Assembly: GCA_041874725.1 (NCBI GenBank)
Contig: CP097466.1
Location: 3,906,001-3,970,000, forward strand
Direction: 5' to 3'
DNA: 64,000 nt
Source: Duganella sp. BuS-21
GTDB lineage: Bacteria > Pseudomonadota > Gammaproteobacteria > Burkholderiales > Burkholderiaceae_D
Position numbers and translations under genes: made by a program. Position 1 is the stretch's first letter. Every line of letters starts with the position of its first letter. A model generated the notes under the pieces. The model had not been told where the DNA came from and did not search any database. It saw only the letters and a list, made by a program, of their open reading frames with translations. Below, one piece after another: positions 38,887 through 59,789 of this stretch.

Positions 38887-38931
38887 ATATCAACACGCAT
38901 TGATATTAATGAAGACACCCCGGTGTGTCAA
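38887..38931 (-). promoter_or_regulatory. Promoter and operator O1 of the 38857-34775 operon
   Basis: On the minus strand TTGACA (38931-38926), a 17-bp spacer and TAATAT (38908-38903), directly followed and overlapped by the palindrome ATATCAATGCGTGTTGATAT (38906-38887). The same arrangement recurs at 38956-39000 and 47921-47965. The probable repressor is the TetR protein at 59147-59752. Confidence 0.8.
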
Positions 38932-38955
38932 TCAGGATTTTTCTTTGCTTCGGCA

Positions 38956-39000
38956 TTGACACTGCTGCGTGCCGGGCATAATATCAATGCGTGTTGATAT
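38956..39000 (+). promoter_or_regulatory. Promoter and operator O2 of the 39046-44794 operon
   Basis: TTGACA (38956-38961), 17-bp spacer, TAATAT (38979-38984), then the operator palindrome ATATCAATGCGTGTTGATAT (38981-39000) overlapping the -10. It is the exact mirror of O1, so one repressor can close both divergent promoters. Confidence 0.8.
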
Positions 39001-39045
39001 ATTTTTGTTGCACACCACAAATGGATAAAACAGGAGACAAACGCC

Positions 39046-40311
39046 ATGACCAACGACAAAGCCAGCCGCCTCGCCACCATTCTTGAGCAGGTACGTGCGC
39101 TCGGCCCAACCTTGCGCGAACGCGCCGCCGAAGCCGAGCGCAGCGGCCGTCACTCGGACGAGACCATCGCCGCCCTGCACGCGACCGGCGCTTTCAACAT
39201 CGGCAGCCCGGCCGAATACGGCGGCGACGAGCTGAGCGTGCGCCAGCAGCTGGATGTGGTGACCGAGGTCGCCAAATGGGACGGTTCCGCAGGCTGGTCG
39301 GTATGGGTGGGCGCGGCAACCAACTGGATTCCCGCCGGCATGGGCGCGCGCGTGGTGGAGGAAGTCTTCGGCTGCGACTGGGCCGGCCCGCGCGTAGCCG
39401 GCTCCAGCCACTTCCCCGCCACCCGCGGCCGCGCCAAGCGCGTCGACGGCGGCTGGATCATCTCCGGCGGTCCATGGACCTTCGGCAGCGATGCGCTGTG
39501 GGCGCCGTACACCAATCTCGGCTGTATCGCCGATGAAGGCCAGGGCCGTTTCCTGGTCGGCCTGCAGGTGCCGCGCGACCAGCTCAAGTTCCTGGACGAC
39601 TGGAAAGTGGCAGGCATGTGCGCCACCGGCAGCGTCTCGATCACGCTCACCAGCGAAGAATTGTTCGTGCCCGATTATCGCGGCGTCGATTTCCGCGAAG
39701 TGACCAGCGCCGTGCATGACAACGGCTTGAAAGGCGACCTGTGGAAAGCACCAGCGCTGGGCTGGTCCTTCAGCCTGATGGCCGGCATGTCGATCGGCCT
39801 GGCGCAAGGCGCGCTGGCGCGCTTCCTCGACCGTTCGGCCGGCCGTCCGATCCGTGGCACCAGCTACAAGAACCAGTTGGAGGCGCCGCTGACGCATCTG
39901 TTGTTGGCGGAAGTGCATTCGAAGATCCAGGCCGCGACCCTGATGGCGCGCGCCAACGCCGAAGAAACCGACCGCCTGGGCAAACTGGCCGCCGCCGGCA
40001 CCCCGGCCGACGGCGAATACATGCAACTGTTCAGCGCCCGCGTGCTGGTCGAAACCGCGTATGCCGCCAAGTGGTGCGCCGAAGCGATCGAGATCCTGCA
40101 ACGCAATTCCGGCTCCACCGCCATCATGCTGTTCGAGCCGATCCAGCGCGCCTGGCGCGACGCCCGCATCATCACCCTGCACGGCGCGCTCAACCTGGAA
40201 GCCCTGTCCGAGAACTACGGCCGCCTGATGGCCGGCCTGCAGCCGCACAACTTCGAGGGCATCACCACGCTGGACCGCTTCGCACCGGCGCCGTCGGCAA
40301 AAGCCGCATAG
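39046..40311 (+). CDS. Flavin-dependent monooxygenase, acyl-CoA-dehydrogenase fold (HsaA/HpaB-C group D type)
   Basis: A 421-residue protein of the Acyl-CoA_dh_2 type. It begins with the helical [20 protein letters not shown] and [18 protein letters not shown], has the mid-domain [20 protein letters not shown] and [16 protein letters not shown], and ends with [20 protein letters not shown]. The wording 'SGxWxFxSG' in the middle domain is typical of two-component hydroxylases (HsaA, DszC relatives), which use reduced flavin and oxygen, instead of true acyl-CoA dehydrogenases. Reduced flavin could come from the FMN reductase at 35577 or the fusion protein at 45232. First gene of the plus-strand operon. 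Confidence 0.82.
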
Positions 40312-40324
40312 GGAAAGGCTTGTG

Positions 40325-42499
40325 ATGTCGAATTCACCTACATCCGCCGCGCCCGACTATTCCGGTCTGGAGGCCTGGAACCAGGCGGCGCTCAAGTCCG
40401 CGCCGGGCGGCAAGCTTGAGGCGCTGACCTGGACCACGCCGGAGGGCATCAAGGTCAAGCCGCTGTACACCCGCCAGGACCTGGACGGCCTGCAATACGC
40501 CGACACCCTGCCCGGCTTTGCGCCCTTCCTGCGCGGGCCGCAGGCCACCATGTACGCGGCGCGGCCCTGGACCATCCGCCAGTACGCCGGCTTTTCGACC
40601 GCCGAGGCCTCCAACGCCTTCTACCGCAAGGCGTTGGCGGCCGGCGGCCAGGGCGTGTCGGTGGCGTTCGACCTGGCCACGCACCGGGGCTACGACTCCG
40701 ACCATCCGCGCGTGACCGGCGACGTCGGCAAGGCCGGCGTCGCCATCGATTCGGTCGAGGACATGAAGATCCTGTTCGACGGCATCCCGCTCGACAAGGT
40801 GTCGGTGTCGATGACCATGAACGGCGCCGTGCTGCCGGTGCTGGCCGGCTACGTGGTGGCGGCCGAGGAACAAGGCGTGGCGCAGGACCAGTTATCGGGG
40901 ACCATACAGAACGACATCCTTAAGGAGTTCATGGTCCGCAACACCTATATCTATCCACCGGCGCCGTCGATGAAGATCATCGCCGACATCATCGGCTACA
41001 CATCGAAGCACATGCCGAAGTTCAATTCGATCTCGATCTCCGGTTACCACATCCAGGAAGCCGGCGCCACGCAGGCGCTGGAGCTGGCCTTCACCCTGGC
41101 CGATGGCCGCGAATACGTGAAGACCGCCCTGGCCTCGGGCCTGGACGTCGACGAATTCGCCGGCCGCCTGAGCTTCTTCTTCGCCATCGGCATGAACTTC
41201 TACCTGGAGGTGGCCAAGCTGCGCGCGGCGCGTCTGCTGTGGTGGAAGATCATGCAGGAATTCTCGCCGAAGAGCGCCAAGTCGATGATGCTGCGGACCC
41301 ACTGCCAGACTTCCGGCTGGACGCTGACCGAACAAGACCCGTACAACAACGTGGTGCGCACCACCATCGAAGCGATGGCGGCAGTGTTCGGCGGCACGCA
41401 GTCGCTGCACACCAACGCGCTCGATGAGGCGATCGCCCTGCCGACCGACTTCTCGTCGCGCATCGCGCGCAACACGCAGCTGGTGATCCAGGAAGAAACC
41501 CACATCACCAGCGTGGTCGATCCCTGGGGCGGCTCCTACATGATGGAGAAGCTGACCCAGGACATGGCCGACGAGGCGTGGAAGATCATGGAGGAAGTCG
41601 AGGCCATGGGCGGCATGACGCACGCGGTCGAATCGGGCTGGGCCAAGCTGAAGATCGAGGCTTGCGCGGCCGACAAGCAGGCCCGCATCGATTCCGGCAA
41701 GGATGTGATCGTCGGCGTCAACAAATACAAGCTGGCCAAGGAAGATCCGATCGATATCCTGGATATCGACAACCACGCCGTGCGCGAATCGCAAATCGCG
41801 CGCCTGAACAAGCTGCGCGAAAGCCGCGACGACGACCAGATGATGGCCGCGCTGGACGCCCTGGTCAAATGCGCCGAAGGCGGCCAGGGCAACCTGCTGG
41901 ACCTGGCGATCAAGGCGGTACGCCTGCGCGCCTCGGTCGGCGAGATATCCGACGCGCTGGAAACGGTCTACGGCCGCTTCCGCGCCACCCAGCAGACCGT
42001 CTCCGGCGTGTACGGCGCGGTGGTCGAGGGCCAGGCCAGCTGGGAGGAAATCAAGGCAGACATCGAGCAGTTCCTGGCCGACCAGGGCCGCCGTCCGCGC
42101 ATCATGATCGCCAAGCTCGGCCAGGATGGTCACGATCGCGGCGCCAAGGTGGTGGCCACCGCCTTCGCCGACCTCGGCTTCGACATCGACGTCGGGCCGC
42201 TGTTCCAGACCCCGGAGGAAGCGGCGCGGCTGGCGATCGAGAACGACGTGCACGCCATCGGCGTGTCCTCGCTGGCGGCCGGCCACAAGACCCTGCTGCC
42301 GGCGCTGGTCAAGGCGCTGACGGACCAGGGCGCGGACGACATCATCGTGTTCGCCGGTGGTGTGATCCCGGCACAGGATTATGACTACCTGTTCGAGGCC
42401 GGCGCCAAGGCCATCTTCGGGCCGGGCACGCGCATCGAGGATTCCGCCAGGACCACCCTGGCGGAAATCCGCAAGGCGCTGGCCGGCGCGGCGGCGTAA
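40325..42499 (+). CDS. scpA: Methylmalonyl-CoA mutase
   Basis: A 724-residue single-chain, B12-dependent mutase converting (R)-methylmalonyl-CoA to succinyl-CoA. The TIM-barrel part has [48 protein letters not shown] and [18 protein letters not shown]. The C-terminal cobalamin domain has [12 protein letters not shown] (His603 as lower cobalt ligand), GVSSLAAGH and FAGGVIP. The Tyr and Arg in MYA and MVRNT are those of methylmalonyl-CoA mutases. The ATG at 40325 follows GGGAAAGG. It is coupled to its GTPase chaperone downstream, with no gap. Confidence 0.93.
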
Positions 42500-59064: not shown

Positions 59065-59102
59065 TATTTGTTGTATCGAATTCTCGCGGGGCAAAAATAC
59101 AA

Positions 59103-59124
59103 AAAGCCCGCACAAGCGGGCTTT
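59103..59124 (-). terminator. Terminator of the TetR gene
   Basis: Hairpin AAAGCCCGC-TTGT-GCGGGCTTT on the minus strand with further T residues after it, 23 bp after the tetR-type gene. It separates that gene from operator O4. Confidence 0.8.
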
Positions 59125-59146
59125 AAGAGATGGGAGCAGGCCGGGA

Positions 59147-59752
59147 TCAGCCGGTCAGAATCGTCTGGATGGCGGCGCCGACCAGGGCGATCACCGTCTC
59201 CTGGTTTTCGTTGGCCACCACCGGCACGCGCACGATATCGCGGCTGACGATCACGCCGACCAGCATCGCGGCCGCCAGACCCGCGCGCAGCGGGGCGTCC
59301 GACACGCCGTGCAGCTTGGGACTGATCACCTCGACCAGCCGGTATTGGACGAAGTCGCGCAGCTGCGACGCCGCCACCTCGCTCGACATGGCGGCGCGCT
59401 GCATCGCCATCAGCGCTTCCGAGTCGCCGCTCTTCTGTTCCCACAGCTTGATGAAGGCGCGCGTCACGCGCAGCCCCAGGCCCTCGATCGGGCCCTCGTA
59501 GGCGTCGGCCATGCTGTTCAGGGCGTCGGCCGAGACCGCCAGGCTGGCGGCGAACAACACATCCTTCGATTGGTAGAACTGCATGACCAGCGCCGGGTCG
59601 ACACCGGCGTCCTTGGCGATCTTGCGGATCGTGGTCGCGGCAAAGCCGTCCGTTGCAAAGCTCTTCTTGGCGGCGGCCAGCACCGCATCGCGCGTATTGC
59701 TGGCGCCCGCGCGGCGGCCGCGTCGCGGCGCCTTTTCTTGGGTTTCACTCAT
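59147..59752 (-). CDS. TetR-family repressor, probable master regulator of the cluster
   Basis: About 201 residues. The N-terminal HTH (AVLAAAKKSFATDGFAATTI, RKIAKDAGVDPALVMQFYQS) is typical of TetR/AcrR regulators, and the C-terminal part is a helical TetR_C-like ligand domain. The ATG at 59752 has AGGGA nine bases upstream; an ATG at 59761 is also in frame. A palindrome of the same type as O1-O4 lies 18 bp upstream (O5), which indicates autoregulation. Five matching sites before its own gene and the cluster operons make it the probable repressor of the pathway; the inducer is unknown. Confidence 0.9.
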   Translation of the reverse strand: MSETQEKAPRRGRRAGASNTRDAVLAAAKKSFATDGFAATTIRKIAKDAGVDPALVMQFYQSKDVLFAASLAVSADALNSMADAYEGPIEGLGLRVTRAFIKLWEQKSGDSEALMAMQRAAMSSEVAASQLRDFVQYRLVEVISPKLHGVSDAPLRAGLAAAMLVGVIVSRDIVRVPVVANENQETVIALVGAAIQTILTG

Positions 59753-59769
59753 TGTTTTCATCCCTGATC

Positions 59770-59789
59770 ATATCAACTTCTGTTGATAT
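59770..59789 (-). promoter_or_regulatory. Operator O5, autoregulatory
   Basis: ATATCAACTTCTGTTGATAT, 18 bp upstream of the chosen TetR start. The half-sites match O4 and the right arms of O1-O3. Confidence 0.75.

Follow-up and report, generated by a model that had tools for sequence, protein, structure and literature searches.

The DNA window analyzed here comprises 64,000 nucleotides of Duganella sp. BuS-21 (contig CP097466.1, positions 3,906,001 to 3,970,000). It contains a catabolic gene cluster, a gene for a TetR-family regulator (tetR) and five 20-bp palindromes, and in all likelihood the TetR protein is the repressor that acts through these sites. The original prediction had described a split cluster of 25 kb; the genes covered extend from 36154 to 59752, and the size was corrected to about 23.6 kb. 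The genes, promoters and predicted operators are the following:

36154..36969, minus strand, fumarylacetoacetate-hydrolase (FAH) family protein (profile matches)
37003..38550, minus strand, malonyl-CoA-synthase-type (MatB-like) CoA ligase (NF005702)
38547..38858, minus strand, small protein, no Pfam or NCBIfam family found in profile scans
38887..38906, minus strand, operator 1, ATATCAATGCGTGTTGATAT read on this strand, on the -10 of the promoter for 38858-36154; the same 20-mer occurs in Duganella sp. CF517
38903..38931, minus strand, promoter, -35 TTGACA at 38931-38926, 17 nt, -10 TAATAT at 38908-38903 (sequence)
38956..38984, plus strand, promoter TTGACA-17-TAATAT (sequence)
38981..39000, plus strand, operator 2, on the -10 of the promoter for 39046-44794
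39046..40311, plus strand, HsaA-like flavin-dependent monooxygenase of the acyl-CoA-dehydrogenase superfamily (profile matches)
40322..42499, plus strand, methylmalonyl-CoA mutase; three MM_CoA_mutase genes, this one included, were found in the genome (profile matches)
42500..43498, plus strand, MeaB GTPase (profile matches)
43532..44794, plus strand, DUF3500 protein (profile match, alignment, structure search)
44856..45215, minus strand, small cupin-like protein, below the Pfam and NCBIfam cut-offs (profile matches)
45232..46356, minus strand, flavin reductase with nitroreductase/BluB-like C-terminal part (profile matches)
46331..47887, minus strand, flavin adenine dinucleotide (FAD) monooxygenase, MhpA-like subfamily (profile matches)
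47921..47940, minus strand, operator 3, on the -10 of the promoter for 47887-44856
47937..47965, minus strand, promoter TTGACA-17-TAATAT (sequence and consensus scan)
47986..49182, minus strand, MFS_3 transporter (profile matches)
49186..49722, minus strand, SnoaL-like protein (profile match)
49741..51078, minus strand, MFS transporter, aromatic acid/H+ symporter-like, below the curated cut-off (profile matches)
51242..53641, minus strand, TonB-dependent receptor (profile matches)
53778..54812, minus strand, AraC-family regulator (profile matches)
54870..57140, minus strand, second S15/CocE-type hydrolase, S15a (profile matches)
57220..58959, minus strand, CocE/NonD-type hydrolase, S15b (profile matches)
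59045..59064, minus strand, operator 4, one arm mismatch, preceding the CocE/NonD hydrolase gene
59103..59124, minus strand, terminator-like hairpin after tetR and ahead of the hydrolase unit (hairpin scan)
59147..59752, minus strand, TetR-family regulator, 201 amino acids, PF00440 and PF17920, recognition helix ...VMQFYQSK (profile matches, alignment)
59770..59789, minus strand, operator 5, upstream of tetR, predicted autoregulation

Gene order and strand within 36154-59752 suggest five transcription units, with one operator at each start. Operator 5 would serve tetR alone, and operator 4 the long unit of S15b, S15a, AraC, TonB receptor, MFS, SnoaL and MFS_3. The predicted unit of operator 3 consists of the MhpA-like monooxygenase, flavin reductase and cupin genes, that of operator 1 of the small protein, MatB-like ligase and FAH hydrolase genes, and that of operator 2 of the HsaA-like monooxygenase, mutase, MeaB and DUF3500 genes. 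The hairpin scan gave a second terminator-like hairpin after the cupin gene; its total in the region was 14 sites, versus 10.8 in shuffled sequences. The gaps of 137 and 163 bp on either side of the TonB gene could harbour extra promoters, and a promoter scan of 44700-60700 listed none in these two gaps. A short hydrophobic reading frame of 36 codons (ATG at about 51207, minus strand, interval 51078-51242) was seen between the TonB receptor and MFS genes.

The five palindromes were found exactly at the predicted positions, and those at 38887, 38981 and 47921 were indeed identical to each other apart from strand. The other two precede the hydrolase gene (59045) and tetR (59770), as had been claimed. 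They had also been described as having the same arms around a different centre, which holds for the perfect arms at 59770, while the site at 59045, AGATCAAC, has one arm mismatch. The tetR operator is 17 bp away from the start at 59752 and 8 bp from an alternative ATG at 59761. In the 6.49-Mb genome the pattern ATATCAA-N6-TTGATAT had four perfect sites and one one-mismatch site, all within the cluster; four more copies, each with two mismatches, lie outside it. With up to one mismatch the palindrome is thus confined to the cluster. An independent-base estimate with the base composition of the window gave an expectation of 0.045 sites with up to one mismatch. As controls, the reversed pattern had two genome sites at up to two mismatches, and a pattern with a spacer of 7 rather than 6 found ten other places in the genome and missed the cluster sites. 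None of 100 shuffled versions of the window reached the five matches seen at up to three mismatches (mean 0.02, maximum 1).

Each of the three identical palindromes lies on the -10 element of a TTGACA-17-TAATAT promoter, as predicted. The operator starts inside the -10, and the orientation is the same throughout. The consensus promoter scan of 44700-60700 included the promoter at 47965-47937 among its matches. The hydrolase-side site at 59045 is also preceded by TAATAT, and inspection of the sequence ahead of it revealed no good -35. The 54-bp promoter-operator segments 38881-38934 and 47915-47968 are 87% identical, a likeness that suggests promoter duplication during the assembly of the cluster.

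The TetR protein carries the N-terminal helix-turn-helix domain PF00440 (E 5.8e-11, 42.4 bits, cut-off 24) and the C-terminal ligand domain PF17920, TetR_C_16 (82.1 bits, cut-off 26.2). It was the sole PF17920 protein found in its own genome at E<=1e-5. The predicted operator next to its gene, at 59770-59789, has arms that are retained in the congener CF517.

Duganella sp. CF517 was the closest comparison. TetR matches at E<=1e-20 were present in 5 of 195 genomes of the bacterial family, namely the window's own, CF517 (80% identity) and three at 32-35%. Among the 74 genomes available for the genus, only two, one of them that of the window, have the HsaA-like gene, and the cluster is therefore a rare accessory. 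Twelve core pathway proteins are 70-94% identical between the window and CF517. The same 20-mer is located at three catabolic promoters of CF517, each again TTGACA-17-TAATAT, and the CF517 tetR site, ATATCAAC-GTTT-GTTGATAT, has the same arms and a different centre. One extra one-mismatch place on another CF517 contig does not have the CAAC/GTTG form. S15b (80%), S15a (83%), AraC (70%) and MFS2 (77%) form a separate block 31-38 kb away from tetR, so that by sequence the CF517 palindromes accompany tetR and the core pathway, not AraC. No TonB receptor turned up in the CF517 stretches read. The CF517 tetR is followed by a DUF1302-DUF1329-BNR-MMPL group (L020 11625-18219) in place of the hydrolase and transport genes of the window.

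In two actinobacterial orders, TetR matches at E<=1e-30 were present in 132 of 348 and 60 of 391 genomes, mostly near 40% identity. Altogether 67 TetR loci were compared (L014-L018, L047, L048, L052, L064, L067-L095 and L097-L125); L066 and L096 were excluded as repeats of L052 and L047, and among the matches without a locus only the second Amycolatopsis TetR (L064) was included. A site was counted when it had up to four mismatches to ATATCAACNNNNGTTGATAT within 400 bp upstream of tetR. The VMQF recognition helix occurred in 12 of the 67 loci, and 10 of these 12 had an upstream site, compared with 4 of the 55 loci with another helix (L016, L017, L018 and L095, three mismatches each). Ten actinobacterial orthologs with 48-57% identity have the VMQF helix, and in eight of them the site was found upstream of tetR, with TCAAC-N4-GTTGA exact in six and one base off in two (L067, L098). 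The site centres vary among the Actinobacteria. In six loci (L047, L064, L068, L097, L098, L099) the site lies between tetR and a divergent S15b gene; the second TetR gene of Amycolatopsis, for instance, adjoins an S15b homolog, and a perfect site separates the two genes. The divergent gene across the site is of the S15a type in L100, and in L067 it is SnoaL, followed by S15b. The loci L016, L017 and L018 belong to the same bacterial family as the window; TCAAC-N4-GTTGA palindromes also precede the genes of their distant TetR relatives (32-34%), a hint that the operator may be shared across a subfamily.

The enzyme families allow a proposal for the function of the cluster. The mutase belongs to its equivalog family (NF006944, 1273 bits, cut-off 876), its nearest PDB chains are methylmalonyl-CoA mutases, and its gene is additional to another high-scoring copy in the genome. 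The CoA ligase belongs to the MatB subfamily (NF005702, 702 bits, cut-off 558), and its substrate may be malonate or methylmalonate. The product of 39046-40311 reached 166 bits against the HsaA equivalog (cut-off 450) and is thus HsaA-like, not HsaA. The C-terminal part of the flavin reductase (45232-46356) matches nitroreductase and BluB models in pieces only. Together, the flavin monooxygenases, FAH protein, MatB-like ligase, mutase and MeaB suggest a route from a C-methylated phenolic compound via methylmalonate to succinyl-CoA. The two flavin monooxygenases with the reductase could prepare the phenolic ring, and the substrate of the enzymes is probably a C-methylated (poly)phenolic ring, which they would hydroxylate and open. 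FAH-family enzymes cleave acylpyruvate-type bonds, and the hydrolase of the cluster probably cuts the opened ring into methylmalonate and a keto acid, for example pyruvate; from a methylated ring with seven carbons the products would be methylmalonate and pyruvate. The MatB-like ligase would then probably activate methylmalonate, and the mutase isomerise methylmalonyl-CoA to succinyl-CoA. Methylmalonate as the end product is indicated by the MatB-like ligase, the additional mutase and MeaB. The methylmalonate pathway is nevertheless a tentative assignment, somewhat less likely than not. In the DUF3500 protein H200, H201, E368, H386 and H388 are invariant in 14 aligned sequences and look like a metal site; the structure model of the protein has a pLDDT (predicted local distance difference test score) of 78.5. 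Candidate substrates are compounds of the C-methylated phloroglucinol type. Usnic acid is a candidate suggested only by its chemistry and by the name of one host, Subtercola lobariae; no supporting paper was found.

When the HsaA-like protein was used as the query of a scan, 12 loci were retrieved: two in Streptomyces, three in Sphingomonadales and one each in Amycolatopsis, Actinomadura, Nocardioides, Subtercola, Beijerinckiaceae, Dormiibacter and CF517. These loci comprise at most 10 kb per side and several are ended by contig ends, so that absences are provisional. S15a was present in 9 of the 12 and adjoined HsaA in 8, S15b was present in 10 (39% identical in one), an MhpA-like protein with at least 43% identity in 10, and FAH in 8. 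DUF3500 was found in six (24-28% in five, 79% in CF517). TetR orthologs were present in three, all actinobacterial, the CF517 tetR lying outside its locus, and the strict motif TCAA-N6-TTGA was found in CF517 and in two of the three TetR-bearing loci. The Beijerinckiaceae locus encodes MatB, an FAH protein truncated where the contig ends, and a glyoxalase-superfamily protein of two domains, which may be an extradiol dioxygenase; this gene set fits the methylmalonate scheme. A scan of the contig collection with TetR as query yielded no relatives, while the scan with the HsaA alignment did, and plasmid searches with HsaA and S15b found only relatives below 60% identity. DUF3500 was also tried alone as a marker of the cluster and rejected: the five order-relative loci read had just one MhpA-like (35%) and one FAH-like (37%) neighbour, in different loci, and there was no such operator among the palindromes listed for them (9 or 10 of 10 pairs).

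Several of the results weigh against a uniform TetR regulon with a methylmalonate pathway. The promoter scan of 44700-60700 had a total of 3 matches versus 2.7 in shuffles, i.e., no excess; the promoter match alone is therefore weak evidence, and it is the register shared by promoter and palindrome that carries weight in the sequence. No site with up to four mismatches was present in the 20 kb read around the S15b-S15a-AraC-MFS2 block of CF517, and the hydrolase branch of the predicted regulon is accordingly not fixed. Among the VMQF loci, L052 has only a five-mismatch site at tetR, and L048 (Subtercola) has no site at tetR; its sites are instead found before S15a-HsaA-S15b and before a second S15b copy. 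Given the three-mismatch sites at four TetR genes with another helix, TCAAC-N4-GTTGA appears to be partly a motif of a wider subfamily. Eight of the 12 HsaA loci had neither a TetR ortholog nor TCAA-N6-TTGA, and the whole genomes of three of these (L053, L056, L057) had no site with up to two mismatches to ATATCAACNNNNGTTGATAT, so the enzymes are often regulated otherwise. Of the 12 loci, two had MatB and one had the mutase. The one solved DUF3500 relative found, 9x86, is titled a dehydratase, not a dioxygenase.

The TetR protein at 59147-59752 had been proposed as the reader of the operators, and this is supported by the common conservation of protein, helix and operator in the congener and in Actinobacteria and by its position as sole TetR_C_16 protein found in the genome. 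A TetR dimer would bind the five ATATCAAY-N4-RTTGATAT operators. The ligand-free protein would block RNA polymerase sterically, the operator covering the -10 and the expected start, and would repress its own gene and the four catabolic units until the aromatic substrate or an early intermediate released it. Repression rather than activation is favoured because the operators sit on the -10.

It is unlikely that two regulators are involved, with TetR reading only its own and the hydrolase site and another TetR-type protein the three sites with the centre TGCGTG. The centres do differ consistently, and TGCGTG is kept in CF517, where the tetR site again has a different centre, but the arms are common to all sites, the actinobacterial centres vary, and no PF17920 protein other than the window TetR was found in the genome (only this C-terminal domain was surveyed). 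In addition, the fixed centre coincides with the region in which transcription is expected to start at these similar promoters, which may explain its constancy. As TGCGTG is constant at three promoters in both genomes and oriented with the promoter, it is probably a feature of the transcription start region and not the mark of a second regulator. Still less credence is due to TetR as an activator or to sites that are functionless relics of promoter duplication. The likeness of the two 54-bp promoter segments would suit relics, but the 20-mer is exactly conserved in CF517 despite differing nearby promoter bases and related sites exist in another phylum, and the position on the -10 of near-consensus promoters fits repression. 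That the AraC-family protein (53778-54812), and not TetR, reads the palindromes is highly improbable: its gene sits within the cluster and is retained in CF517, but there it is grouped with the block that has no palindrome at up to four mismatches, while the four cluster sites accompany tetR and the core genes, searches of the actinobacterial loci (some just 3.5 kb long) revealed no AraC homolog, and perfect 20-bp palindromes are unusual for AraC proteins.

Taken together, repression by TetR would make the locus a compact, testable regulon with one regulator and five operators, one per predicted unit. It also ties a group of orphan genes to what may be a methylmalonate exit route. Finding the inducer could show which substrate is used by these genes, which occur in several bacterial phyla, and the operator might be employed as a sensor for the inducing compound. 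The literature search found no published description of the cluster, the pathway or the operator. A wider proposal, an undescribed catabolic route for C-methylated polyketide-type phenolics (acyl- or methylphloroglucinols, e.g., lichen usnic acid) to methylmalonate and succinyl-CoA across Pseudomonadota and Actinobacteria, with one TetR-operator pair kept with the CocE/NonD hydrolase across phyla, is doubtful.

The lower pathway of 2,4-dinitrotoluene degradation (DntB, DntD, DntG, DntE) also combines an FAD monooxygenase, ring cleavage and an FAH-type hydrolase, and yields a C4 product at the methylmalonate level (the semialdehyde) and pyruvate. It uses a methylmalonate-semialdehyde dehydrogenase, whereas the window has the MatB-like ligase, mutase and MeaB instead, and, unlike in that pathway, profile scans of the window proteins covered revealed no extradiol dioxygenase. 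The fungal gallate route of Aspergillus resembles the window in having a DUF3500 protein, AN10530, within a polyphenol pathway; it is proposed as the ring-opening dioxygenase for tetrahydroxybenzene (PMC12388069). This role is only a proposal there and the solved relative 9x86 has a dehydratase title, so that DUF3500 is no more than a candidate for the ring-opening enzyme of the window. As for the regulator, the solved TetR_C_16 relatives 2np3 (E 6e-30) and 2guh (E 8e-15) are akin to the window TetR in sequence over almost the whole length, but are named merely as putative regulators. KstR and KstR2, which control cholesterol use in mycobacteria, are TetR-family repressors with a helix-turn-helix and a ligand domain and with palindromic operators at several promoters of one pathway, which includes an HsaA-type enzyme. 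The window TetR differs from them in its TetR_C_16 subgroup, its operator and its gene set. For a TetR protein such a regulatory design is nothing unusual; the points of interest are the pathway and the persistence of the TetR-operator pair across phyla.

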